Assembly (NCBI RefSeq): GCF_005503555.1
Contig: NZ_SCNG01000006.1
Span: 62,001 to 126,000 of the forward strand
DNA: 64,000 nucleotides
Source of the DNA: Rudaea sp. 3F27F6
GTDB lineage: Bacteria > Pseudomonadota > Gammaproteobacteria > Xanthomonadales > Rhodanobacteraceae
Direction of reading: 5' to 3'
How positions within the stretch are numbered: the stretch's first letter is position 1; every line of letters begins with the position of its first letter. A program made the translations under genes and the position numbers. Of the stretch, positions 39,094 through 54,088 are shown one piece after another. The notes beneath the pieces were generated by a model, which did not search any database, had not been told where the DNA came from, and saw nothing but the letters and a program-made list of their open reading frames with translations.

Positions 39094-40467
39094 TCAGCCG
39101 GGAATATGTTTCCGCCAGCAAAGCAGCCGCGCGCGCGTGCCGCCCTCGGCCGATTCGTCGATGACGAAGCCGAAATCGTGCAGACGCGCGATGGCATCGA
39201 CGAGACTCAGCCCGAGCCCGCTGCCGGGCACGTTGCGCGCCTCATCGGCACGATAGAAACGCTGCAGCACCGACTTGCGCTGATCGGGCGCGATGCCCGG
39301 CCCCGAATCGCTCACCGCGATCACCGCGCCCTGCTCGACGCTGCACAGCGACACGCCGATCGTGCCGCCGGGCGGCGTGAACTTGATCGCATTGTCGATG
39401 AGGTTGCCGACCGCCTCGAACAACAATTCGCCATCGCAGGCCGCGGTCGGAGTCGCTTCGATGTCGAGCAAGAGGCGCACGTCGCCCTGCGCCGCGAGCG
39501 GCTCGTAGAGCCCGACCAGCTTGCGCAGTATCGGCTCGAGCGGCGTCGGCGACACGCCGGCGCGGCGGCGCTTGCTCTCGATCTCGGAGATGCGCGACAA
39601 GGCGCGGAAGCGCGTCAGCAGCAGGTCGGTCTGAGTCAGCGCGTGATTGAGCGCCACGTGATGCGGCGACGCGTCTTCGAGAGACTGCACAGTGCGGTAG
39701 ATCGACGCGCGCAGACGCGTGAGCGGCGTGCGTAGATCGTGGGCGATATTGTCGCTCGCGGTCTTCACCTCGCCCATCAGACGTTCGGTTTCGTCGAGCA
39801 TCGCATTGACGATCTGGGCGAGCGCGTCGAGTTCGCGGTTGCGCCGCCCTAGCGGCAGGCGCTGACTGTAATCGCCGTCGGCAATGCGCTTTGCCGCGCG
39901 GTCGATCTCGCGGATATGGCGCACGGCCGGCAGGCTGTAGAACACACCGCCGAGCACGCCGAGCAACAGAATCACCCCGGCGATCAGAAAGCAGCCGCGC
40001 AGCAGCGATTGGCGGATCTGTTCAAGCAGGGCGACGTCGCGCGCGACGACGAGCACGTTGCCGTTGTCCAGTTTCTGCCCGAGCGCACGGACTTCGAGCG
40101 CCTGCGGGAACAGGTCGGCACTGCCCTCGGTCTGCAGCGCCTGCGGTTTGCCGTTCACCGTCAATCCGCGCGGCACGCGCGCCAGGTTGCCGACCAGCGC
40201 GCGGCCGTCGGGCGCATACACGCCGAAGTAGCTGATATGGCGCACGTCGCGAGCGATTTCGTAAGCGATGTTCTGATCCAGTTGGCCCGGCGTCGCCGTC
40301 GAGAACACGTGCGCCTGGCTGCGCAGGATCTGGTCAACCTGCTGGTTCTGGTAGCGCGCGGTCTGCCAATAGATCAACCCAAGCAGGCCGACCACGGCGA
40401 GGGCGAACAGGCCGCCGTACAGTACGGTCAGGCGGAAACTGGTAATGCGCCAGAGTTCAGCGAGCAT
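39094..40467 (-). CDS. Sensor histidine kinase
   Basis: A 457-residue membrane kinase. Two membrane helices (about 11-33 and 157-179) flank a periplasmic domain, and a HAMP linker follows (to about 232). The phosphorylated His243 is in DNIAHDLRTPLTRL. The ATPase domain has N-box NLIDNAIKF, G1 DSGPGI and G2 GSGLGL. The start overlaps the response regulator by 11 bases, so the two are co-translated. Genomic position, divergent from an RND operon, suggests it controls efflux or copes with an envelope stress; the signal is unknown. Confidence 0.94.
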   Translation of the reverse strand: MLAELWRITSFRLTVLYGGLFALAVVGLLGLIYWQTARYQNQQVDQILRSQAHVFSTATPGQLDQNIAYEIARDVRHISYFGVYAPDGRALVGNLARVPRGLTVNGKPQALQTEGSADLFPQALEVRALGQKLDNGNVLVVARDVALLEQIRQSLLRGCFLIAGVILLLGVLGGVFYSLPAVRHIREIDRAAKRIADGDYSQRLPLGRRNRELDALAQIVNAMLDETERLMGEVKTASDNIAHDLRTPLTRLRASIYRTVQSLEDASPHHVALNHALTQTDLLLTRFRALSRISEIESKRRRAGVSPTPLEPILRKLVGLYEPLAAQGDVRLLLDIEATPTAACDGELLFEAVGNLIDNAIKFTPPGGTIGVSLCSVEQGAVIAVSDSGPGIAPDQRKSVLQRFYRADEARNVPGSGLGLSLVDAIARLHDFGFVIDESAEGGTRARLLCWRKHIPG

Positions 40468-41161
40468 CGCCGAACTGATACCCGGAGCCGCGCACCGTGT
40501 GAATCAGCGCGGGACAGCCGGCTTGTTCGAGCTTCTTGCGCAGGCCGGCGATATGCACCTCGATCAGATTCGTGCCCGGATCGAAGTGATAGCCCCACAC
40601 CGCCTCGAAGATCATCGTGCGCGTCAGCGTCTGCCCGGAGTTGCGCATGAGGAATTCGAGCAACTGATACTCGGTCGGCTTGAGGCCGAGATCGAGATCG
40701 CCGTAGAACGCATTGTGCGCGACGCGGTCGAGCGTCACGCCCTGCACGCGCAGTTGCGTCGACTCCACCGACTGCGTCTGCCGGCGCAGCAGGACCTCGA
40801 CGCGCGCGGCCATTTCATCGGAAGCGAACGGCTTGGTCAGATAATCGTCGCCGCCCGCGCGCAGTCCGCGCACGCGTTCGTCCACGTCGGACAAAGCGCT
40901 GATCATCAGCACCGGCGTGTGGATGCGCTGCGCGCGCAGGGCACCGACCACATTGAGCCCGTCGATGTCGGGCAGCATGCGGTCGAGCGTGATCACGTCG
41001 TAGTCGCCACGCAGCGCGAGCTCCAGGCCCTCGCTGCCGTTATCGGCGCGGTCGACCTCGAAGGCGTGCGCGGCCAGTTCGGCGACGATTTCGTTGGCCG
41101 TGCTGTCGTCGTCCTCGATGACGAGGATTCTGCCCTGCACGGTGGTGGTGGTGGCAGTCAT
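40457..41161 (-). CDS. OmpR-family response regulator
   Basis: A 234-residue regulator. The receiver domain has acidic pocket Glu17-Asp18, phosphorylation site Asp60 in ITLDRMLPDIDG, and Lys110 in YLTKPF. The C-terminal winged helix has KPTEYQLLEFLMRNSGQTL and LIEVHIAGLRKKLE, followed by HTVRGSGYQF. The ATG at 41161 is preferred over upstream in-frame starts, which would add a non-conserved basic leader. It is paired with the kinase at 39094 and divergent from the RND operon at 41418; tandem TTAA boxes in the gap may be its sites. Confidence 0.94.
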   Translation of the reverse strand: MTATTTTVQGRILVIEDDDSTANEIVAELAAHAFEVDRADNGSEGLELALRGDYDVITLDRMLPDIDGLNVVGALRAQRIHTPVLMISALSDVDERVRGLRAGGDDYLTKPFASDEMAARVEVLLRRQTQSVESTQLRVQGVTLDRVAHNAFYGDLDLGLKPTEYQLLEFLMRNSGQTLTRTMIFEAVWGYHFDPGTNLIEVHIAGLRKKLEQAGCPALIHTVRGSGYQFGDAR

Positions 41162-41300
41162 TGTGTCGTGCCCAAAGGAACCGTACGGGCTGCGTCGAAC
41201 CCGGCCTTTGCCCATCCGAACCGGGCGTGCCGGTCGGATCGCATCGGCGCGCGCCCCTACAGTGAGCCACGAAGCCGCAGCGATCACAACCGGAAGTTGT

Positions 41301-41349
41301 CGATATTAAGAACCTTTAATCGCTGCGCCCGATATTAAAAAACTTTAAA
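41301..41349. promoter_or_regulatory. Tandem OmpR/PmrA-like boxes between regulator and RND operon
   Basis: CGATATTAAGAACCTTTAAT (41301-41320) is repeated as CGATATTAAAAAACTTTAAA (41330-41349), a 29-bp period. Each has two TTAA cores ten bases apart, close to the spacing of direct half-sites used by OmpR-family regulators such as PmrA. They lie 69-117 bases before the permease gene in the 256-base divergent gap. Confidence 0.55.
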
Positions 41350-41417
41350 CACCGGGCCCCGGAACATTGACCTAGCATGCCGCATCCGTAACGGCACCAC
41401 GGCCGCAACCGAAGCCC

Positions 41418-44400
41418 ATGAATTCGCTGATCCGCATCGCCCTGTCCCGCCCGTACACGTTCATCGTGCTGGGCATCTTGATCCTCATCATCGGCCCGCT
41501 CGCGATCCTGCGCACGCCGATCGACATTTTCCCGAGCATCAATCTGCCTGTGATCAGCGTGGTGTGGACCTACAACGGCCTCGCCCCGGACGACGTCTCC
41601 GACCGCATCGTCACCTACTTCGAGCGGCAGATGACGACGACGGTCAACGACATCGAGCATATCGAGTCGCAGTCCCTGCCCGGCGTCGGCGTGGTCAAGG
41701 TGTTCTTCCAGCCCGACGTCAACGTCAACGCGGCGATGGCCCAGGTGACCGCAATCGCCCAGGTCGTTCTCAAGCGCCTGCCGCCCGGCATCACGCCGCC
41801 GCAGATTCTCTCGTACAGCGCGTCGAGCGTGCCCGTGCTGCAGCTCGCGCTGACCAGCAAGACGCTGACCGACCAGCAGCTCTTCGACCTGTCCAACAAC
41901 TTTATCCGCCCGCAGCTCGCCCAGGTCGAAGGCGCGGCGATTCCTTCGCCCTACGGCGGCAAGAACCGTCAGGTCGTGGTCGATCTCGATCCGAACGCGC
42001 TGCGCTCGAAAGGACTCTCGCCGTCCGACGTGACCACGGCGATCCTCGCGCAGAACCTGATCCTGCCGTCCGGCACACAGAAGATCGGCACGTTCGAATA
42101 CAACGTCACCCTCAACAACAGCCCGAAAGAACTCGACGAACTCAACGAGCTGCCGATCAAGGCGATCGGCGGCAGCGTGATCAAGCTCAGCGACGTCGCC
42201 CACGTGCGCGACGGCTACTCGCCGCAGCAGAACCTCGTGCTCGTCAACGGCCAACGTTCGGTGCTGACCACGATCCAGAAGAACGGCAAAGCCTCGACGC
42301 TCGACATCGTCGCCCACGTCAAATCGCTGCTGCCGACGATCCAGGCCGGCGCGCCGAAAGGCCTTGAGATCGGCAAGCTGCTCGACCAGTCGATCTTCGT
42401 CAAGGCCGCGGTATCGGGCGTGATCCGCGAAGGCGTGATGGCGGCGGCACTCGCGAGCCTGATGATCCTGCTCTTCCTCGGCAGTTGGCGCTCCTCGCTG
42501 ATCATCGCGGTATCGATCCCACTGTCGATCCTCTGCTCGGTCGCCGCGCTGTCGGCGATCGGCGAAACGATCAATGTGATGACCCTCGGCGGCCTCGCGC
42601 TCGCGGTCGGCATCCTCGTCGACAACGCGACGGTGACGATCGAGAGCATCAACTGGCATCTCGAACAGGGCAAGGAAGTGCCGGTGGCGATCGTCGCCGG
42701 CGCAGGCCAGATCGCCATCCCGACTCTCGTCTCCACCTTGGCGATCTGCATCGTCTTCGTGCCGATGTTCTTCCTCAACGGCGTCGCCAAGTACCTGTTC
42801 GTGCCGATGGCCGAGGCGGTCGTGTTCGCGATGATCGCGTCCTACATCCTGTCGTTCACCCTGGCGCTGACCCTGTCGAAGTATCTGCTCAAGCCGCACG
42901 TCGATCCACACGCGCCGACTGCGCATCCAATCGAGGACGCGATGCGCGAAGACCCGACCGAACACATGGCGGGTGGCTACGGCAATCTGCTCGCGCGCTT
43001 CCAGCGCCGCTTCGAGCGCGCATTCGAGAGCGTGCGCGAGCACTACCGCGGCCTGCTCGCACTCGCGCTCGCTGCGCCGAAGAAATTCGCGGTCGGCTTT
43101 CTCGGCATCGTGTTCGCGTCCCTGCTGCTGATTCCGTGGCTCGGCGAAAATTTCTTCCCGAGCGTCGATGCCGGCCAGATCAAGCTGCATATGCGCGCGC
43201 AGACCGGTACGCGCATCGAGGAAACCGCGCGTCTCGCCAGCCAGGTCGAGAAGACGATCCGCCGTATCATTCCGGCCGACGAACTGAAGAGCGTGGTCGA
43301 CAACATCGGCCTGCCGGTCAGCGGCATCAACATCACTTATTCGAATTCCGCGCCGATCGGCCCAGCCGACGCCGACATTCTCATCTCGCTCAACGAAGAG
43401 CACGGGCCGAGCGATGAATACATCGCCGCGCTGCGCGAAGCGCTGCCGCGCGAATTCCCCAGCGCGACGTTCTCGTTCCTGCCGGCCGACATCGTCAGCC
43501 AGATCCTCAACTTCGGCCTGCCCGCGCCGATCGACGTGCAGGTGGTCGGCTTCAAGCGCGAGGAGAACCGCGCCTACGCCGAAGAACTGCTGCACCGGAT
43601 GAAGCGCGTGCCCGGCCTCGTCGACCTGCATCTGCAGCAGGCCTTCGACCAGCCCGAGCTGCACGTCAGCGTCGATCGCGCGCGCGCGCAGCAGATGGGC
43701 TTCAGCGAGCGCGACGTGGCCAACGACATGCTCGTGTCGCTGTCGGGTTCGGGCCAGGTCGCACCGACCTTCTGGGTCAATCCGAAGAACCACGTTTCCT
43801 ATCCGATCGTGGTGCAGACGCCGCAGTACAAGCTCGACTCGCTGAGCAATCTGGAGAACATTCCTATCACCGGCCCCGGCAGCAAGCAGCGCCAGATTCT
43901 CGCCGGCGTCGCCAGCGTCACGCGCGGCCAGGGCGACGGCGTGGTCTCGCATTACGACGTACAGCCGACCCTCGACATTTTCGGCGCCGTGCAGGGCCGC
44001 GACCTCGGCGCGGTATCGCGCGAGATCGATGCGATCCTGCGCGACACGGAGAAAGACGTGCCGCCCGGCTCGACCGTCGCCCTGCGCGGTCAGGTGCAGA
44101 CGATGGAGGAATCCTATTCGAGCCTGTTGTTCGGCCTCGCCGGCGCGATCGTGCTGATCTATCTGCTGATCGTGGTCAATTTCCAGTCGTGGCTCGATCC
44201 GTTCGTCATCGTCACCGCCCTGCCCGCCGCGATCGCCGGCATTGTCTGGGTGCTGTTCCTGACCGGCACCACGCTGTCCGTGCCCGCGCTGACCGGCGCA
44301 ATCATGTGCATGGGCGTCGCCACTGCGAACAGCGTGCTCGTGGTCAGCTTCGCGCGCGAGCGCATGGCGCAGGGTGCCGACGCGTTGACCGCGGCGATCG

Positions 44401-44657
44401 ACGCCGGCTACATCCGCTTCCGCCCGGTGTTGATGACCGCGCTCGCGATGCTGATCGGCATGCTGCCGATGGCCTTCGCCATGGGCGAAGGCGGCGAGCA
44501 GAACGCGCCGCTCGGCCGCGCGGTGATCGGCGGCCTGATCTTCGCCACCTGCGCAACACTGTTCTTCGTGCCGGCGGTGTTCGCCATCCTGCATGCGCGC
44601 GACCGGCACGCAGAAACAGATGGCGCACCGCTTGATGCCCAGCCTGCCGGGGCCTGA
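41418..44657 (+). CDS. RND efflux permease with Asp-Asn relay motif
   Basis: A 1079-residue inner-membrane RND transporter. Twelve helices and two large periplasmic loops are present; the N-terminus is IRIALSRPYTFIVLGILIL. The usual Asp-Asp pair of drug/proton permeases reads Asp402-Asn403 here (VGILVDNATVTIESI), as in a distinct RND subgroup. Transport presumably relies on Asp402 with other helix residues. First gene of an RND-MFP-OMF operon, divergent from its probable two-component regulator. Confidence 0.93.
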   Translation: MNSLIRIALSRPYTFIVLGILILIIGPLAILRTPIDIFPSINLPVISVVWTYNGLAPDDVSDRIVTYFERQMTTTVNDIEHIESQSLPGVGVVKVFFQPDVNVNAAMAQVTAIAQVVLKRLPPGITPPQILSYSASSVPVLQLALTSKTLTDQQLFDLSNNFIRPQLAQVEGAAIPSPYGGKNRQVVVDLDPNALRSKGLSPSDVTTAILAQNLILPSGTQKIGTFEYNVTLNNSPKELDELNELPIKAIGGSVIKLSDVAHVRDGYSPQQNLVLVNGQRSVLTTIQKNGKASTLDIVAHVKSLLPTIQAGAPKGLEIGKLLDQSIFVKAAVSGVIREGVMAAALASLMILLFLGSWRSSLIIAVSIPLSILCSVAALSAIGETINVMTLGGLALAVGILVDNATVTIESINWHLEQGKEVPVAIVAGAGQIAIPTLVSTLAICIVFVPMFFLNGVAKYLFVPMAEAVVFAMIASYILSFTLALTLSKYLLKPHVDPHAPTAHPIEDAMREDPTEHMAGGYGNLLARFQRRFERAFESVREHYRGLLALALAAPKKFAVGFLGIVFASLLLIPWLGENFFPSVDAGQIKLHMRAQTGTRIEETARLASQVEKTIRRIIPADELKSVVDNIGLPVSGINITYSNSAPIGPADADILISLNEEHGPSDEYIAALREALPREFPSATFSFLPADIVSQILNFGLPAPIDVQVVGFKREENRAYAEELLHRMKRVPGLVDLHLQQAFDQPELHVSVDRARAQQMGFSERDVANDMLVSLSGSGQVAPTFWVNPKNHVSYPIVVQTPQYKLDSLSNLENIPITGPGSKQRQILAGVASVTRGQGDGVVSHYDVQPTLDIFGAVQGRDLGAVSREIDAILRDTEKDVPPGSTVALRGQVQTMEESYSSLLFGLAGAIVLIYLLIVVNFQSWLDPFVIVTALPAAIAGIVWVLFLTGTTLSVPALTGAIMCMGVATANSVLVVSFARERMAQGADALTAAIDAGYIRFRPVLMTALAMLIGMLPMAFAMGEGGEQNAPLGRAVIGGLIFATCATLFFVPAVFAILHARDRHAETDGAPLDAQPAGA

Positions 44658-44771
44658 TCGACAGAGACGGGCCCTTCGCCAAGAACGACTGCACTGTCTG
44701 CGAACAAACCAAGCTGAAACCGGGCGCGGCCGGTCCGATCGATACCGACGCGCCTTCATGAGAGAAGAGAT

Positions 44772-45998
44772 ATGTCCGCCAACCGTTCCGCCGCCACTCC
44801 CTCGCCGCGCCGCCTGAGACTCGTCGGCATCGTCGCCCTGGTCGTCGCGCTTGCTCTCGCGATCACCGGCATCGGTGCGCGCACTCACCGCGAACACGCG
44901 CTCAAGCAGAAGGTCGATACCGACTCGGTGCCGACCGTGACCCTGATCGCCCCGGCGGCCGGCGAGTCGAAACAGCAGCTCGTGCTGCCGAGCAATGTGC
45001 AGGCGTACTACGACGCGCCGATCTACGCGCGCGTGCCCGGCTATCTGAAGAAGTGGTACGTCGACATCGGCGGCAAGGTGAAGGCCGGCGACGTGCTGGC
45101 CGATATCGAGACGCCCGAACTCGATCAGCAGTTGCAGCAGGCGCGCGCAGACCTCGCCACTTCGGTCGCCAAGCTCAAATTGGCCGAAACGACCAACCTG
45201 CGCTGGCAGAAAATGCTCGCGGCGACCTCGGTGTCGAAGCAGGAGGCCGACGAAAAATCCAGCGATTTCGAGGCGCGCAAGGCGGAAGTCAGCGCGCAAC
45301 ACGCCAACGTCGATCGGCTGCAGGCGCTGGCCGGGTTCAAGCGTGTGGTCGCACCGTTCGACGGCACCGTGACCGCACGCAAGACCGACATCGGCGCGCT
45401 GATCAATGCCGGCAGCGGCAGCGGTCCCGAACTGTTCCGCGTCGCCGATACGCACAAGCTGCGCGTCTACGTCGACGTGCCGCAGGCCTATGCGGAGCGG
45501 ATTGCGATCGGCATGCAGGCCGCGCTGCAACTGCCGGAACGGCCCGGCAAGACCTACCCCGCCGCCGTGGTCAGCACGGCGAACGCGATCAATGAATCCT
45601 CACGCACCCTGCTCGTCCAGCTCGAAGCGGACAACGCCGACGGCAAGCTGATCGCCGGCTCTTACGCCGACGTGCATTTCGATCTGCCGGCCGCAGCGGG
45701 GTCGCTGCAGCTGCCGGTCACCGCGCTGATCTTCCGCCAGAACGGCCTGCGCGTGGCGACGATGGGCGGCGACGGCAAAGTGGTGATGAAGAGCATCCAG
45801 ATCGGTCGCGACTACGGCACCAAGGTCGAAATCGTCGACGGCCTCGCGGCCAGCGATCGCGTGATCGACAGCCCGCCCGACTGGCTCGCCCAGGGCGACA
45901 AGGTGCGGCCGCAGCAGGCCGCGCAAGGCGATGCGAAACTCGCTGCTGCCGCGGCGCAGCCGGCCAATGCGCAAGCCCAGGCGGGAACGCACGAATGA
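44772..45998 (+). CDS. RND efflux membrane-fusion protein
   Basis: A 408-residue periplasmic adaptor with one N-terminal membrane segment (LVGIVALVVALALAITGIGA). The first lipoyl half is VPGYLKKWYVDIGGKVKAGD, followed by a helical hairpin rich in Gln/Ala/Asp, the second lipoyl half (VVAPFDGTVTARKTDIGALI) and a beta-barrel domain. The C-terminus is Ala/Gln-rich. The stop overlaps the start of the outer-membrane gene by four bases (ATGA). Confidence 0.92.
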   Translation: MSANRSAATPSPRRLRLVGIVALVVALALAITGIGARTHREHALKQKVDTDSVPTVTLIAPAAGESKQQLVLPSNVQAYYDAPIYARVPGYLKKWYVDIGGKVKAGDVLADIETPELDQQLQQARADLATSVAKLKLAETTNLRWQKMLAATSVSKQEADEKSSDFEARKAEVSAQHANVDRLQALAGFKRVVAPFDGTVTARKTDIGALINAGSGSGPELFRVADTHKLRVYVDVPQAYAERIAIGMQAALQLPERPGKTYPAAVVSTANAINESSRTLLVQLEADNADGKLIAGSYADVHFDLPAAAGSLQLPVTALIFRQNGLRVATMGGDGKVVMKSIQIGRDYGTKVEIVDGLAASDRVIDSPPDWLAQGDKVRPQQAAQGDAKLAAAAAQPANAQAQAGTHE

Positions 45999-47476
45999 AC
46001 GCGCTCAAACCCCTGCTGCGCACGCTCGCGCTCGCCGCAGCGACGGCGGCCTTCGCCGGCTGTTCGTTCGCGCCGAACTACGAAAAGCCCACGACCGACG
46101 TGGCCGACACCTACAAAGAAATCGGCCCGTGGAAGAACGCGGCGCCGTCCGACCAACTCGAGCGCGGCGACTGGTGGCGCGATTATCGCGACCCGACGCT
46201 CGCCGAACTCGAAGCGAAGATCGACGGCGCGAATGCCGATCTCGCCGTCGCCGCCGACCGCTACGACCAGGCGCGCGCTTATCTCGCGCAGACACGCAGC
46301 GGCGAGTTTCCCGAAATCAATGCCGCCGGCCTCGCCACGCGCAACCGCCAGTCCGATCACCGCGCGCTGCGCTCGGCTTCGCAGCCGGAGTACTACGGCG
46401 ACAATATCGTTGGCGCCGCCCTGAGTTACGAGCTCGATCTCTGGGGCCGCGTGCGCAACACGGTCGCCGCGGGCAAAGCAACGACGCAAGCCGCGGCGGC
46501 CGATCTCGCCTCGGTACGCCTGTCGTTGCACGCGCAACTCGCCGACGACTACATCGCACTGCGCGGACTCGATGCGCAGGAGAAACTTCTCGTCGATACC
46601 GCGCATGCCTACGAGGATGCGCTCAAGCTGACCCAGAGCCGCTTCGAGGGCGGCATCGCCTCGGGCCTCGACGTTGCGCGCGCGCAGACCCAGCTCGACG
46701 CGTCGCACGCACAGATCACCGACGTGCGTGCGCAGCGCGCGCTCTACGAACATGCGATCGCAAGTCTGGTCGGCGTGTCTGCGTCGAAATTCTCCTTGCC
46801 GGCGCAAGTGGTCGATCTGCCTTTGCCGGCAATTCCGGTCGCGCTGCCGTCGACCCTGCTCGAACGCCGCCCCGACGTCGCCGCGGCCGAACGCCGCGCC
46901 GCCGCGGCGAACGCGCTGATCGGCGTCGCCCGCGCCGCGTTCTTTCCGTCCATCAGCCTGACCGCGAGCGGCGGCTTCGAGAATACCGGGCATGCGGACT
47001 GGCTGACCGCGTCGAACGGCTTCTGGTCGATCGGCCCGCGCTTCTCGTTCGCCCTGTTCGACGCCGGCAAGCGCCACGCCATCGACGCGCAGGCGCATGC
47101 CGTGTTCAACGAAGCGGCCGACCGCTACCGCAGCACCACGCTGACCGCGTTCCGCGAGGTCGAGGACAATCTCGCCCTGCTGCATCTTCTCGACGAAGAA
47201 GCGAAGCAGGAAAACGCCGCAGTCGCCTCGGCGCAGAACACTCTGCATCTGGCGATGGACCGCTACGAAAACGGCGCAGTGAATTATCTCGATGTGGTCG
47301 CCTCGCAGACCGCGGCATTGCAGGCGCAGCGCACCCTGCTCGTCCTCCATGACCGCCAGTTGCGCGCCAGCGTCGGCCTGATCCGTGCGATCGGCGGCGG
47401 CTGGTCGGACGCTGAGATGCCGAAAGACCTGAGCGCGGAACTGGCCCACGCCGGCACAGCGACAAAGGCCGAATGA
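45995..47476 (+). CDS. RND efflux outer-membrane channel lipoprotein (NodT family)
   Basis: A 493-residue TolC-like channel. Signal peptide with lipobox AFAGCSFAPNY; the first repeat has DWWRDYRDPTLAELEAKI and the second LLERRPDVAAAERRA. It completes the second tripartite pump of the window. It converges with porin B at 47498 (21-base gap). The start overlaps the adaptor's stop, indicating translational coupling. Confidence 0.92.
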   Translation: MNALKPLLRTLALAAATAAFAGCSFAPNYEKPTTDVADTYKEIGPWKNAAPSDQLERGDWWRDYRDPTLAELEAKIDGANADLAVAADRYDQARAYLAQTRSGEFPEINAAGLATRNRQSDHRALRSASQPEYYGDNIVGAALSYELDLWGRVRNTVAAGKATTQAAAADLASVRLSLHAQLADDYIALRGLDAQEKLLVDTAHAYEDALKLTQSRFEGGIASGLDVARAQTQLDASHAQITDVRAQRALYEHAIASLVGVSASKFSLPAQVVDLPLPAIPVALPSTLLERRPDVAAAERRAAAANALIGVARAAFFPSISLTASGGFENTGHADWLTASNGFWSIGPRFSFALFDAGKRHAIDAQAHAVFNEAADRYRSTTLTAFREVEDNLALLHLLDEEAKQENAAVASAQNTLHLAMDRYENGAVNYLDVVASQTAALQAQRTLLVLHDRQLRASVGLIRAIGGGWSDAEMPKDLSAELAHAGTATKAE

Positions 47477-48886: not shown

Positions 48887-49379
48887 CTGGCGGCTCCAGG
48901 AATCGTCTTCGCGCAAACAATGCAAAAGCCGTGCGCGCGAACCGCATTAGCATGCGATCTGCGGCGGCATTCGTTGCTGACTCTCCCCGCGCCGAGTGGA
49001 CGATATCCATGCGATATAGTCAAGGAAACACATCGGATTTCTCGACACCAACGAAGGCATGCTGCGGTGCAGAAAAAGATTCCTATCCGGCGCGGCGTTT
49101 CTCACGAACGAAAAATTTCTGCGCGAATCGGCATCATGCCTGTAAGGAAATTCGCGCGAAGGCCGTCTTATCGTTGAACGCAGCGCAACATCGATTTGTC
49201 TTGCCTGCGCCACAGCCGGGTCATAACGTAGGGAAAGGAAGAGCCAAGGCACCGCGATGCGGTTTTTTTACGCATGCCTTATGACTTTTCCCTCACAACG
49301 ATATGCACCGGTCGAAGCGCCGAACCAAGGCGCCAATGCAGTCGCCGTAAAAACTTTCACCCACGCAACGGAGCACACC
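48887..49379. other. Divergent non-coding region before the RiPP operon
   Basis: Nearly 500 bases with no supported gene. It must hold promoters for porin B and for the cysteine-repeat precursor. A short intrinsic terminator on the plus strand (ACCGC-GAT-GCGGT then seven T, 49251-49269) lies 110 bases before the precursor start and may be a leader attenuator. No ECF sigma or anti-sigma gene, common near bufferin operons, is present in this window. Confidence 0.5.
49251..49269 (+). terminator. Short hairpin with T run in the precursor leader
   Basis: ACCGC (49251-49255) pairs with GCGGT (49259-49263) around GAT, followed immediately by a run of seven T. No plus-strand gene ends nearby except the channel gene 1.8 kb upstream, so this may terminate a leader transcript or small RNA ahead of the precursor gene. 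Confidence 0.45.
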
Positions 49380-49766
49380 ATGACCAACAAACTGATCAAA
49401 CCGCTGACCCTCGCCATCGGCACGGGCCTCGTCGGCTCGCTCGCGCTCGTCCAGATCGCCCAGGCGAATCCGACCTTCCAGATGAACAGCCTGGTCGCGG
49501 GCTACGCCCTCGCCGGCACCGAAGGCAAGTGCGGCGAAGGCAAGTGCGGCGCCACCAAGGGCAAGAAGTGCACGGAGATGCCGGACAAGGCCGCGCAGGA
49601 CAAGTGCGTCGCCGAAGCGCACGCCGACAAGGCGAAGGGCAAGGAAGGCTCCTGCTCTGCCGACAAGAAGGGCAAGGAAGGTTCTTGCAGCGCGGACAAG
49701 AAGGGCAAAGAAGGTTCCTGCTCCGCTGACAAAAAGGGCAAGGAAGGCTCCTGCAGCGGCCACTGA
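49380..49766 (+). CDS. Cysteine-repeat RiPP precursor (HvfA/bufferin type)
   Basis: A 128-residue exported precursor peptide. ATG 49380 has GGAG six bases upstream; a signal peptide (cleavage near Ala29) is followed by [10 protein letters not shown] (residues 48-57), the motif modified in HvfA-type metallophores. Further cysteines are at 64 and 76. The C-terminus is an unusual array of an 11-residue unit [11 protein letters not shown] repeated from residue 86 (cysteines 92, 103, 114, 125), the last copy ending SCSGH. In known systems an MNIO enzyme converts such cysteines to copper-binding heterocycles (oxazolone-thioamide or thiooxazole). The MNIO gene begins five bases after the stop. Here the EGSC array is the departure: whether those cysteines are modified or only bind metal is unknown. 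Confidence 0.85.
49635..49763 (+). repeat. 33-bp tandem repeat encoding [11 protein letters not shown] units
   Basis: Three full units and a fourth truncated unit of 33 bases in frame. Third positions vary between units (for example TCC TGC TCT, TCT TGC AGC, TCC TGC TCC), so the protein repeat is kept by selection or is old enough to have drifted at silent sites. Tandem copies can expand or shrink by slippage, so copy number may differ between strains. Confidence 0.9.
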
Positions 49767-49771
49767 GTACG

Positions 49772-50674
49772 ATGCTTCGTCCAGCCGCCATCCATGGCGC
49801 CGGACTCGGCCTGCGGCGGTCCCTACTGGGGCCGCTGCAGGACTGGCGAGCGGCGCAAGAACGCGACGCCGACGCTGCGGGCGCGATCGATTTCTTCGAG
49901 GTCGCGCCGGAGAACTGGATCAACGTCGGCGGCCGGCTCGGCAAGACGTTCCGTTCATTCACGGAGCGATTTCCTTTCGTCTGTCACGGCCTGTCGCTGT
50001 CGCTCGGCGGCCCCGCGCCGCTCGACGAAACGCTGCTGCACAAGATCCGCCGTCTGCTCGATGAGCACGGCATCGCCACTTACAGCGAACACCTTTCGTA
50101 CTGTTCCGACGACGGTCATCTCTACGACCTGCTGCCGATTCCGTTCACGCAAAGCGCGATCGATTATGTCGCCGCGCGCATCCGTCAGGCGCAGGACATC
50201 CTAGGCCGGCGCATCGCAATCGAGAACGTGTCGTCCTACGCCACGCCGGGCCAGGAAATGAGCGAGATCGATTTCACCAACGCCGTGCTGCGCGCCGCCG
50301 ACTGCGACCTGCTGCTCGACGTCAACAACGTCTACGTCAACAGCGTGAATCACCGCTACGACGCGAAGGCGTTCATCGATGCGGTGCCGGCCGAACGCGT
50401 CGCCTACATGCACATCGCCGGTCACTATGACGAAGCGCCCGACCTGATCGTCGACAGCCACGCCGCTGCGGTGATCGACCCGGTCTGGAATCTGCTCGAT
50501 CACGCCTACGCGCATTGCGGAGTGAAGCCGACCTTGCTCGAACGCGATTTCCGTTTTCCTCCGCTGGCCGAACTGCTCGGCGAGCTCGAACACATTCGCG
50601 CCATCCAACTGCCACGTTCACCCGCAGCGTCTGCACCGCCGCGCCGGGAAAACGCCGCGCGCAGCGCGCGCTGA
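49772..50674 (+). CDS. MNIO (DUF692) multinuclear iron oxidase, HvfB/BufB type
   Basis: A 300-residue TIM-barrel enzyme of the multinuclear non-heme iron oxidase family. Candidate metal ligands appear in the usual order: Glu43/Glu47 in FEVAPENWI, His72 in CHGLSLSLG, Glu106-His107 in SEHLSY, Glu151-Asn152 in AIENVSS, Asn185-Asn186 in [10 protein letters not shown], His214 and His218 in MHIAGHY, Asp228/His230 in VDSH and Glu257 in LERDF. It should oxidise precursor cysteines using iron and oxygen. It begins five bases after the precursor, without a clear own ribosome site, suggesting coupling. The C-terminal tail is Arg/Ala-rich and poorly conserved. Confidence 0.93.
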
Positions 50675-50708
50675 AAGCGCGGCATTCGACCGTAACCGCA
50701 CAATCCCC

Positions 50709-51473
50709 ATGCTCGATCTGAACGCGACGCAGTCCCTGCAATACCGCTTCACCGCGCATCTGCGCGATCCCGCGCGCGCGTCCGCGCCGGCCGGGATCGA
50801 GGACCGCCGCCTGGAGGTGTATCGCGACCTGGTCTACGCGAACATGGAGAGTTTCATCTCGTCGAACTTTCCGATCATCCGCAGCCTGTACGCCGATGCC
50901 GAATGGGAAGTCCTCGCCCGCGCATTCCTGCGCGAGCATCGCTGCCATACGCCGCTGTTTCCCGAATTCGGCCGCGAATTCCTGCGCTGGCTGGAAACGC
51001 GGCAGGCGCAGGGACACGACGATCCGCCGTTCCTGCTCGAACTCGCGCACTACGAATGGGCGGAACTCGCACTGTCGCTCGATGAGGCGGATATCGGCGC
51101 GGTGCCGCACGATCCCGCGGGCGATCCGCTCGTCGGCATTCCCGTGATCTCGCCGCTCGCCTGTGTGCTCGCCTATCGCTTTCCGGTACACCATATTTCG
51201 GCGGACTGGCGTCCCGCCGAAGCCCCCGCCGAGCCGACCCTGCTCCTGCTTGTGCGCAACCGCGACGACATGGTGCGCTTCCACGAGATCAACGCGCTCA
51301 GCGCGCTGCTGATCGAACGCCTGCAGCAGAACCAGACGGCGAGCGGAGCCGAATGTCTCGATGCGCTGCTTGCCGGCTACGATCCTGCCACCGCCGAGAA
51401 CTTGCGTCCTGCCGGTATAGCCGTCCTGCACGAACTGCGGGAACACGAAGCGATTCTCGGCACGCGGCTTTGA
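50709..51473 (+). CDS. DUF2063 partner protein of the MNIO enzyme (HvfC/BufC type)
   Basis: A 254-residue protein of the DUF2063 family; these bind the precursor leader and present it to the MNIO enzyme. The N-terminal helical region carries RRLEVYRDLVYANMES and the conserved FPIIRSLYADAEWEVLARAF. Then come LARAFLREHRCHTPLF, the LLELAHYEWAELAL segment, and a C-terminal alpha/beta winged-helix-like domain (VLAYRFPVHHISADW). Third gene of the operon, 34 bases after the MNIO gene. Confidence 0.9.
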   Translation: MLDLNATQSLQYRFTAHLRDPARASAPAGIEDRRLEVYRDLVYANMESFISSNFPIIRSLYADAEWEVLARAFLREHRCHTPLFPEFGREFLRWLETRQAQGHDDPPFLLELAHYEWAELALSLDEADIGAVPHDPAGDPLVGIPVISPLACVLAYRFPVHHISADWRPAEAPAEPTLLLLVRNRDDMVRFHEINALSALLIERLQQNQTASGAECLDALLAGYDPATAENLRPAGIAVLHELREHEAILGTRL

Positions 51474-51589
51474 GTTTCACAGCCTGCCGTTTGCCTCGGC
51501 TTGGATAACGACGCAAGGCGGCGTTTTTTCGTGTAAGGATCGGCGTTCGGCTTCGTCCAATCCCCAACTCGTACACAAGGAACGCTGCC

Positions 51590-52243
51590 GTGACCAATCT
51601 GATTTCTGTCTGGGAATCGCTTACCGCACGCCTGCGCGGCGTCGGCGAATCGCTGCCACCGCTCGTGCTGCGCCTGATCATGGCCTGGGAATTCTGGGAA
51701 TCGGGCTCGGAAAAATATTTGGGCGACAACTGGTTCACCGATATCCAGTCGAAGTTCCCGTTTCCGTTCAGCGCGATCCCCGCTGACATCAGTTGGGCTT
51801 TGGCGACCTATCTCGAACTTGGCGGCGCGGTATTGCTTCTGTTCGGCCTGTTCACGCGCTTTGCCGCCTACAGCCTGATCGTACTGACCTTCGTCGCGAC
51901 CGCCGCAGTGCACTGGCCCGACATGATTTCGATGTGGAGCGATCTGGCCAAGGGCTATGCGATCACCGACATGGGCCATGGCAACTTCAAGCTGCCGCTG
52001 CTGTTCGTCGTCATGTTGCTGCCGATCGTTTTTTCCGGCCCGGGCAAGATCAGTCTCGATCACCTGCTCTCGCGCATCTTGCGTTCCGGGAAAAATATCC
52101 CGCCCGTTGCCGACGCCTACGCCTGGGCTCTGGCCAGTCTCGCTCTGGCGATCCCATTCCTCTTGTTGACTCCCTTTTTCGGCGCGACCTTGCTGCTTAT
52201 CGCTATCGCGCTGGGCCTGTTCGGTCGGTTCGCGCGCGCGTGA
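51590..52243 (+). CDS. DoxX-family membrane protein
   Basis: A 217-residue membrane protein with four hydrophobic segments. The DoxX signature lies near LPPLVLRLIMAWEFWESGSEKYLG and LGGAVLLLFGLFTRFAAYSL. The GTG at 51590 is supported by AAGGA nine bases upstream. DoxX proteins often accompany bufferin/HvfA operons; they are thought to act in redox or quinone chemistry at the membrane. The 116-base gap before it contains a weak dyad ending in six T (about 51508-51530), so part of the transcription may stop there. Confidence 0.82.
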   Translation: MTNLISVWESLTARLRGVGESLPPLVLRLIMAWEFWESGSEKYLGDNWFTDIQSKFPFPFSAIPADISWALATYLELGGAVLLLFGLFTRFAAYSLIVLTFVATAAVHWPDMISMWSDLAKGYAITDMGHGNFKLPLLFVVMLLPIVFSGPGKISLDHLLSRILRSGKNIPPVADAYAWALASLALAIPFLLLTPFFGATLLLIAIALGLFGRFARA

Positions 52244-52250
52244 CGCGGCC

Positions 52251-52715
52251 ATGTCCGAACATTCCACCGACGCAACGACGCCGCGCAGCCATCCGCTGCG
52301 CGAAGGGGTTCGCCGCAATGCGGTGGCCCTGATCAGTCTCACCGTCGCCCTGTTCGCCACGAGCTACAACACGTGGCGCAACCAAACGACCGAGGCGCAC
52401 CGCAACGTGCGCGAAGCATCGTTCAAGCTGCTCGAAGCCTGCGGCGAACTGCAGCAGCTCGCGCAGCACCGCTACTACGGCGGCGATCACTCGCAGATGA
52501 ACTGGATCGCCGGCTGGGGCAAGGCCACGCTGATCCGCGATATGGCGCCGCTCGTGTCGCCGGCGACACAGGCGCACGCCGACACGCTGTTCGCGGTATG
52601 GAAGGAAAATGCCGGCGAACTCGAAAGCGGCAAGGGCAACTCGGAACAGGCCGTCGAATCCGCACTCGATGCGGTCGCCGACGCGGCGCGGGCGGAGTTG
52701 CTGGCTTTGCATTAG
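52251..52715 (+). CDS. Uncharacterised membrane-anchored protein, last in the RiPP operon
   Basis: A 154-residue protein I do not recognise. One membrane segment (about residues 25-42, [18 protein letters not shown]) leads to a predominantly helical soluble domain with [18 protein letters not shown] and a C-terminal Ala/Glu-rich helix. It starts 7 bases after the DoxX stop, so it is probably co-transcribed. The hydrophobic segment is preceded by basic residues, consistent with an anchored periplasmic or cytoplasmic domain. No function can be assigned. Confidence 0.6.
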
Positions 52716-52785
52716 CCGCTCGCGCTCGTTGCAGGCCTCGATCCATCGGATTGAGATCGCCGACGCGGGCACGTATGCTGCGGCC

Positions 52786-53418
52786 ATGTCTGCAACCAGC
52801 ACTATCAAATACGCCGAGCGTTTCCGCGGCTTTCTTCCGGTCGTCGTCGACGTCGAGACCGGCGGTTTCGACAACGAGCGCGACGCGCTGCTCGAGATCG
52901 CCGCGGTCGTCGTGCGCATGGACGAGACCGGCATCGTGCATCCCGATCCGGCCGTGTCCACGCACGTCGTGCCGTTTCCGGGCGCGAACATCGATCCGCG
53001 CGCACTCGAAATAACCGGCATCGACCCGACTCATCCGTTCCGCGCGGCGGTCGAGGAGCGCGAAGCGCTCGATCTGATCTTCCGCCCGATCCGCCGCGCC
53101 CTGCGCGAGTACGAATGCTCGCGCGCGGTGCTCGTCGGCCACAACGCCTCGTTCGACCTCGGCTTTCTCAACGCCGCGATCCGCCGCACCGGCTACAAGC
53201 GCAGTCCGTTCCACCTGTTCAGTTGCTTCGACACGGCCACGCTAGGCGGCCTCGCCTACGGCCAAACCGTGCTGAGCCGCGCGGTGCAGGCGGCCGGCTT
53301 CGAGTGGAACGAGAACGAGGCGCATTCGGCCGTCTACGACGCCGAGCGCACCTCGCTGCTGTTCTGCGACATCGTCAACCGCTGGCGGACGATGAGCGAG
53401 GCCTGCGCTACGCGTTAG
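52786..53418 (+). CDS. rnt: Ribonuclease T
   Basis: A 210-residue DEDD exonuclease that trims 3' ends of tRNA and other small RNAs. The three exo motifs are [22 protein letters not shown] and [11 protein letters not shown], including the catalytic Asp/Glu/Asp/His residues. The ATG at 52786 begins [16 protein letters not shown], matching the family start; upstream in-frame starts would add unrelated residues. Length fits. It follows the RiPP operon with a 70-base gap and is probably a separate unit. Confidence 0.93.
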
Positions 53419-53470
53419 GTATTGCTAACATTCTGCATCGCAAACTGTTCTCTTTGCCGGAGGTTCGACC

Positions 53471-54088
53471 ATGACCCTGTCGCGAGAGCCGCGCCTGCAT
53501 CCCGTCGCGATCGCCGACCTGCGCCCGACCCAGATCACGGTCGGCATGCGCGAGGTCGAGGCCAAGCGCAAGAGCTGGAAAGATCATCCCGACTACAAGA
53601 AGGCGGAGTTCCTCGGCAAGCATCTGATCCCGGTCATCTGGGGACTGGATGAGCGCTACTACGTGATCGATCATCACCACCTGTCGCTCGCACTGCACAA
53701 GGAAGGCGTCAAGCACATCGCCGTCACCGTGGTCGCGGATCTGCGCCGGCTCGACGAAGAGGCGTTCTGGTTCAATCTCGACAACCGCGGCTGGATGCAC
53801 CCGTTCGATGCCAAGGGCCGACGCCGCGGCTACGAGGACGTGCCGAAGAAGATCATCGATCTGGTCGACGACCCCTACCGCAGCCTCGCCGGCGAACTGC
53901 GCCGCCTCGGCGGTTTCGCCAAGGACACGACGCCTTTCAGCGAATTCCTCTGGGCCGACTTCCTGCGCCGCAGGATCAAGCGCAAAGCCATCGAGGCGGA
54001 TTTCGACAAGGCGCTCGACAAGGCGCTCAAGCTCGCCAAGAGCGAAGACACCGACTACCTGCCCGGCTGGTGCGGACCGATCGTCTGA
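53471..54088 (+). CDS. ParB-like nuclease-domain protein
   Basis: A 205-residue protein of the ParBc_2 type. A short N-terminal segment (HPVAIADLRPTQITVGMREV) is followed by VIDHHHLSLALHKEGVKH, a ParB-fold histidine cluster, and a C-terminal helical region with DFLRRRIKRKAIE. Strong GGAGG ribosome site eight bases before the ATG. Not the chromosome-partition ParB: no parA neighbour and no helix-turn-helix is obvious. The function of such stand-alone proteins is unknown; some of this fold have nucleotide-hydrolysing activity. Confidence 0.8.
   Translation: MTLSREPRLHPVAIADLRPTQITVGMREVEAKRKSWKDHPDYKKAEFLGKHLIPVIWGLDERYYVIDHHHLSLALHKEGVKHIAVTVVADLRRLDEEAFWFNLDNRGWMHPFDAKGRRRGYEDVPKKIIDLVDDPYRSLAGELRRLGGFAKDTTPFSEFLWADFLRRRIKRKAIEADFDKALDKALKLAKSEDTDYLPGWCGPIV

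Follow-up and report, generated by a model that had tools for sequence, protein, structure and literature searches.

The 64,000-nucleotide stretch of Rudaea sp. 3F27F6 analysed here (the window; host family Rhodanobacteraceae) carries an hvfABCX operon at 49380-52243, with all genes on the plus strand, as delimited by the list of open reading frames (ORFs) and by NCBIfam and Pfam profile searches. Judged from its sequence, the operon is a member of the Lys-Cys (EGKCG) branch of the 5-thiooxazole copper RiPPs, or ribosomally synthesised and post-translationally modified peptides (oxazolin, fontiphorin; 'captophorins'), a kind already well described. The preferred reading, to which a probability of about two in three is given, is that of an oxazolin/captophorin-type operon whose HvfB would modify not only the canonical EGKCG sites but also an array of Ser-flanked EGSCS sites, giving six thiooxazoles in an exported Cu(I)-binding peptide. 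The genes follow each other in the order precursor, MNIO, DUF2063 protein, DoxX protein and a 154-residue protein, and the features on which the argument turns are the following.

49380-49766, plus strand: hvfA-like precursor of 128 residues with eight Cys, ATG at 49380 (NCBIfam HvfA NF050188, E=1.8e-4, 22.1 bits)
49380-49466, plus strand: residues 1-29 (AQA|N), judged by inspection to be a Sec-type signal peptide, [10 protein letters not shown]
49476-49514, plus strand: FxxxxLxxGYxxA segment after the signal; comparison by eye shows a like segment in many of the order's precursors
49521-49550, plus strand: pair of canonical EGKCG sites for modification, read from the sequence as [10 protein letters not shown]
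49569-49607, plus strand: CX11C insert with two Cys, shared by seven of the nine Rudaea precursors
49635-49763, plus strand: four KGKEGSCS(ADK) units of 33-bp period with Ser-flanked Cys, from unit comparison and pattern scan
49772-50674, plus strand: hvfB-type MNIO (DUF692) of 300 residues (NCBIfam PRK05409 HvfB, 427.7 bits, cut-off 360; PF05114)
50453-50464, plus strand: MNIO residues D228-S229-H230-A231 (DSHA), where relatives mostly have DTHG, from alignment
50546-50554, plus strand: MNIO gate D259-F260-R261, taken as FonB D249-F250 by motif and position
50709-51473, plus strand: hvfC (DUF2063, partner with RiPP recognition element, RRE; NF050145, 286 bits, cut-off 142; PF09836, PF22106)
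51590-52243, plus strand: hvfX (DoxX), GTG start as listed (NF050144, 133.2 bits, cut-off 80; PF07681)

HvfB, HvfC and HvfX belong to the families after which they are named. HvfC also matches PDB 3DEE (E=2.3e-12), and PF05114 has a single match in the window's own genome. The MNIO scores below the cut-offs of both MNIO_BufB (260.5 of 310 bits) and the methanobactin enzyme MbnB (48.5 of 325 bits), and its AlphaFold model (predicted local distance difference test, pLDDT, 85.9) has 3BWW as closest fold, followed by TglHI and MbnB, which are known relatives. The traits of the captophorin or Lys-Cys group are found together here: an adjoining HvfB-type MNIO, a DUF2063/RRE partner (PME1) and a repeated 5-mer motif in a precursor predicted to be Sec-exported. 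Moreover, the MNIO carries the FonB-type specificity residues R15, R16, D259 and F260, that is, the two arginines and the Phe at the gate, equivalence to FonB being by motif and position. A preliminary description of this DNA had proposed an exported 128-residue Cys-array peptide followed by MNIO, DUF2063, DoxX and membrane-anchored proteins, and had placed the set among the bufferin/HvfA-type metal-binding RiPPs. The arrangement is borne out by the ORFs and profiles, and the placement, as an MNIO-modified, HvfA/oxazolin-like copper RiPP, by the three Hvf models, the four specificity residues and the Cys precursors found upstream at relatives. It had also expected such precursors to accompany MNIO genes in related genomes; since a Cys-motif precursor stands upstream of 172 of 198 sampled MNIO genes, a lack of association was not seen.

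The sample of 198 HvfB-type MNIO loci (172 with a precursor recognised by regular expression, 26 without) was picked by rank and by hand from the listed matches at E 1e-80 (182 of 299 and 117 of 369 genomes). With L and G numbers as labels of the loci and genomes compared, it comprises L002-L031 without L012, L040 (G013), L059-L078, L090-L149 and L151-L238; L001, L012 and L150 were left out as duplicates of other rows. In all counts 'Rudaea' stands for the genus group of the window's host. Cys counting starts at the first motif, and the resulting 1263 Cys of the 172 precursors include a few stray ones upstream of the start codon: EGKCG accounts for 782, EGSCG for 223, EGACG for 55 and EGSCS for 32, while the residue after the Cys is Gly in 1185 cases, Ser in 42 and Ala in 18. 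EGSCG is thus the second commonest motif among relatives, so that EGSC arrays as a novelty in themselves, as the preliminary description had seen them, are ruled out; what holds of that claim is that, within the sample, EGSCS is nearly confined to Rudaea, Ser after the Cys being the unusual feature. Two or more Cys-Ser sites occur in nine loci, eight from Rudaea plus L238. The latter (G316, a Pseudomonadota metagenome-assembled genome, MAG) was reached via its EGSCS array, and the Rudaea loci entered the sample as kin. L238 and Rudaea are therefore biased by the trait, and the counts were repeated without both: in the remaining 163 loci EGSCS makes up 0 of 1193 Cys, and Ser follows the Cys in five. 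Among the papers listed by literature searches on these motifs and systems, none has EGSCG or EGSCS in its text, although the supplementary motif tables of PMC13097082 may list EGSCS.

All 26 loci lacking a recognised precursor were kept outside the covariation counts given below. Re-inspection of their upstream regions brought up canonical or near-canonical precursors farther upstream in L171, L197 and L207, an EGKCA precursor beside a Phe260 enzyme in L186 and an assembly gap in L040; upstream inspection of 19 others showed no recognisable precursor. Finally, the HvfB-like MNIOs of L221 and L231 have Leu and Phe at the gate, respectively, and their precursors carry CGxxC-type motifs (CGTFC in L221, CGNIC in L231) where EGKCG would be expected.

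Within the window's precursor, the segment between the signal and the CX11C stretch reads [23 protein letters not shown], and the array behind the insert consists of three full 33-bp units plus a final unit ending in SGH. Two of the six motif Cys thus lie in EGKCG and four in EGSCS. The three full units are identical as protein (11 residues each), with proportions of synonymous (pS) and nonsynonymous (pN) differences of 0.64 and 0.05, pN being above zero only because of two-step serine codon switches. Among the other arrays compared, pS/pN is 0.375/0.133 in L003 (one Ala-to-Ser change), 0.246/0.064 in L005, 0.575/0.082 in L007, 0.305/0 in L009, 0.667/0 in L008 and 0/0 in L004, where the units are identical. 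With pS above pN in six of the seven arrays, L004 being the seventh, the comparison points to constraint at the protein level; a reservation is that the units were chosen by a protein regular expression, which keeps pN low.

Other Rudaea species, too, have similar arrays ahead of this MNIO, and this recurrence, together with the mostly synonymous differences between the units, marks the array as more than a chance pattern. Of the genomes of the genus, G008 is Rudaea cellulosilytica (hvf contig NZ_KB899242.1), and a further locus comes from a Rudaea MAG. A scan of contigs for KEGSCS...EGSCS at 33-bp period, which is limited to that spacing and perhaps did not cover the window's own genome, returned 13 stretches: nine hold a precursor homologue (one MAG contributing two of the nine), and four are without a homologue of any of the ten window proteins tried. 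The MAG of L046 has a second precursor homologue, L052 (3871-4353), at the end of a contig.

The enzymes of the genus have changed as well. The pair S229 and A231 occurs in all nine Rudaea loci and in none of 101 other loci compared. D228 and H230, which enclose S229, should be the counterparts of HvfB D242 and H244, according to an alignment with 3BWW; in HvfB these are ligands of iron site 3 (PMC13419390). Eight of the nine Rudaea MNIOs deviate from the DFN gate, seven by Arg, His or Lys at 261 next to Phe260 and one, L009, by Gly260. In the AlphaFold model of FonB, the corresponding Phe250 touches both neighbours of the modified Cys, the preceding Lys and the following Gly; furthermore, at position five of the motif Ala alone was tolerated among the variants tested, and F250D widened the tolerance at position three (PMC13097082).

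A first hint that gate and motif change together came from L009 (Gly260) and from the genome of L238 (Ile260). Phe260 is replaced in seven of the 172 loci (three times by Thr, once each by Gly, Leu, Asn and Ile). A residue other than Gly follows at least one motif Cys in 7/7 loci without Phe260 as against 15/165 with it, seven of the latter being Rudaea (p=2e-7, kinship ignored). In this first count L009 held one stray motif from before the start codon, which was removed for the tree analysis. Leaving Rudaea out, the proportions are 6/6 and 8/158 (p=1.2e-7), and column 260 ranks first of 218 with 261 second; leaving out L238 too, they are 5/5 and 8/158 (p=1.4e-6), with column 260 first of 216; and it is again first, of 202 (p=4.6e-4), among the 48 of these loci below 62% identity, kinship being ignored in these three p values also. 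With Rudaea included, the top column is 261, followed by 229 and then by 125 and 260 at equal rank. Seen from the side of the motif, 147 of the 150 loci whose precursors are Gly-only have the DFN gate, and 14 of the 22 with a non-Gly site have it altered. Taken together, the covariation suggests, short of proof, that the Ser-flanked Cys are genuine substrates.

Several points weigh against the proposed modification of the array or against its placement, besides the choice of units and the way in which L238 entered the sample. The precursor reaches only 22.1 of the 95 bits of the HvfA equivalog cut-off (NF050188) and is therefore named HvfA-like only; the profile search that the preliminary description had suggested thus placed DUF692 and DUF2063 above their cut-offs and the precursor model below. 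L006, which lies outside the pS/pN comparison, has EGACS units, with Ala in place of Ser before the Cys, and one decayed unit, KGKQGTANADK, that lacks the Cys. The window's own MNIO retains Phe260, and L008, devoid of any Cys-Gly site, keeps the canonical DFN, a combination that is unexpected under a strict gate rule. Outside Rudaea, eight Phe260 loci also have a non-Gly motif, some of it noise of the regular expression, as exemplified among the 22 non-Gly loci by AGLCS (L162) and SGDCD (L229). In FonB assays, the double variants tested at position five were all blocked except Ala, Ser perhaps not being among those tried (PMC13097082). Finally, parsimony on a FastTree tree gives five changes at column 260 and ten of the motif trait, and restricting the test to well-supported branches leaves only two independent pairs (sign test p=1).

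These counts bear on the possibility, which has to be taken seriously without being the expected outcome, that the covariation of gate and motif reflects shared ancestry and divergence only, the changes in the Rudaea MNIOs being neutral clade markers. Rudaea is a single clade, the six MNIOs from elsewhere that lack Phe260 rank with the more divergent ones, at 54.8-58.8% identity, and five changes on the tree, with no power on the supported branches, leave room for such a view. It is opposed by the first rank of column 260 among the divergent loci (below 62% identity) from which Rudaea and L238 had been taken out, as well as by the published role of the FonB residue in reading the neighbours of the Cys (PMC13097082).

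The same observations on FonB and the window enzyme would also fit a peptide in which only the two EGKCG Cys become thiooxazoles, the EGSCS array staying a plain-thiol, metallothionein-like tail or redox buffer. FonB refuses most of the residues tested after the Cys (PMC13097082), the window's MNIO still has Phe260, and the EGKCG pair is retained in seven of nine Rudaea precursors. This alternative is nevertheless considered unlikely: the precursor of L008 has no Cys-Gly site, yet it belongs to a complete hvfABCX set with its own MNIO and HvfC, so that either Cys-Ser/Ala is the substrate there or nothing is, and the MNIOs of the genus have changed at 229 and 231 and mostly also at 261.

Under the preferred reading of an HvfB that accepts both classes of sites, the pathway may be outlined by analogy with published relatives, from which its chemistry, the role of the leader and copper binding are taken; the gene content, the families of HvfB, HvfC and HvfX, the recurring array of the genus and the covariation come from the sequences themselves. 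HvfC would dock the precursor, with the signal peptide as leader, as in oxazolin, for which the Sec signal is the leader and the same is cited for bufferin (PMC13419390). The iron enzyme HvfB would then oxidise the repeat Cys successively to 5-thiooxazoles, with a change of -4 Da each, as the EGKCG-pair motif is converted in fontiphorin and oxazolin (PMC13097082). Two of the six thiooxazoles would arise from EGKCG and four from the Ser-flanked EGSCS, modification of the latter possibly being aided by the altered gate, where Phe260 is followed by Arg, His or Lys at 261, and by the DSHA loop. The Cys pair of CX11C probably lies outside the thiooxazole sites, and it would more likely be kept as thiols or as a disulphide; the insert is absent in L008, and G013 has an EF-hand-like insert instead (by eye). 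After export by Sec, the peptide would bind Cu(I) in the periplasm or outside, HvfX possibly helping at the membrane.

Going further, it is a serious possibility, though less likely than not, that Rudaea evolved EGSCS as a second class of sites together with a re-tuned gate (positions 260-261 and the DSHA loop beside the presumed ligands of iron site 3), that the gate reads the residue after the Cys and was switched several times in the family, and that the Ser-flanked thiooxazoles form a separate copper block of different affinity.

As for the metal, products of this class generally bind copper, as reported for the EGKCG-type fontiphorin and for gonophorin (PMC13097082), which makes it improbable that the peptide serves another metal or oxidative stress instead. 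Such a role would fit the MerC fusions reported for the class, its reported induction by gold and by oxidative stress (PMC12452194; PMC13097082), and the EF-hand-like inserts seen by eye in relatives. In seven of these (L010, L015, L023, L059-L061 and L120; by eye), the insert lies between Cys motifs; PMC12452194 describes a different layout, in which an EGKCG block is followed by C-terminal EF-hands.

The fifth gene, described beforehand as a membrane-anchored member of the operon, did not keep that place.

52251-52715, plus strand: facultative 154-residue protein with one N-terminal hydrophobic helix, family-less in NCBIfam/Pfam

NCBIfam and Pfam searches at E 0.1 gave no match to the protein, and its AlphaFold model (pLDDT 59.8) is too poor for a fold search. 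The gene adjoins hvfX in the window; of the 14 further neighbourhoods fetched, four show the same adjacency. It is matched in 11 of 60 genomes, own included: beside hvfX in five (own, G008, G011, G013, G016) and on a contig other than that of the operon in another five (G039, G045, G050, G054, G059), for which reason it is taken as non-core. In G002 the operon contig ends after the MNIO, and the placement there is undecidable. Patchy presence and separate contigs thus rule it out as a core part, and the term passenger or facultative partner describes it best.

Downstream of the operon lies an RNase T gene (52786-53418), so placed in 11 of the 14 neighbourhoods across the order; one of the three without it, L033, is cut by a contig end. 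An endonuclease III-like ORF is seen by eye upstream in several loci of other families. In the window, a two-component pair and an efflux set of the resistance-nodulation-division (RND) type lie upstream (39094-47476). The heavy-metal kinase, regulator and CusA models all fell below their cut-offs, which removes a copper-specific RND neighbour from consideration, and in the RND set the sole models to score above cut-off were generic ones, for the adaptor (RND_mfp) and the outer-membrane protein (NodT). An alignment of four upstream regions contains a conserved stretch but no nameable operator of a copper regulator. At 49200-49230, upstream of hvfA, TTGCCT-N17-TAACGT is largely conserved in four genomes of the genus and is a possible promoter; a sigma-70 scan of 48900-53500 gave one site (52751) against 0.9 expected.

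The operon is a known system in a genus-specific variant, and its value is that of a pointer to a testable enzyme-substrate rule. The clade in which Gly gave way to Ser and the Phe260-less MNIOs with non-Gly precursors are ready pairs for probing a gate rule, and Ser-flanked sites would broaden the motif used to find such precursors.

Among known systems, Bufferin 1 (DUF2282) and Buf2 share with the Rudaea operon the MNIO with its DUF2063 partner and a Sec-exported Cys precursor. In contrast to them, the Rudaea MNIO lies under the BufB cut-off and the Rudaea precursor, for which the Pfam search was empty, is without DUF2282. The Buf_EGKC|EF-hand_5 precursors likewise have a short EGKCG block followed by another module (PMC12452194); compared with these, the EF-hand-like insert of some Rhodanobacteraceae relatives is flanked by Cys motifs, while most Rudaea have CX11C (by eye). 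Oxazolin (HvfABCX) of nontypeable Haemophilus influenzae has the same four genes, and its HvfB, HvfC and HvfX models are all exceeded here; in its HvfA the motif [11 protein letters not shown] occurs three times (PMC13419390), whereas the Rudaea precursor stays under the HvfA cut-off. Finally, fontiphorin (FonABC) and the captophorins of the Lys-Cys group share the EGKCG pair, the MNIO with R15-R16 and D-F gate and the DUF2063 partner (PMC13097082), and unlike fontiphorin, as described there, the Rudaea operon has EGSCS at four of six motif Cys, CX11C between the blocks, the gate DFR and the DSHA loop.

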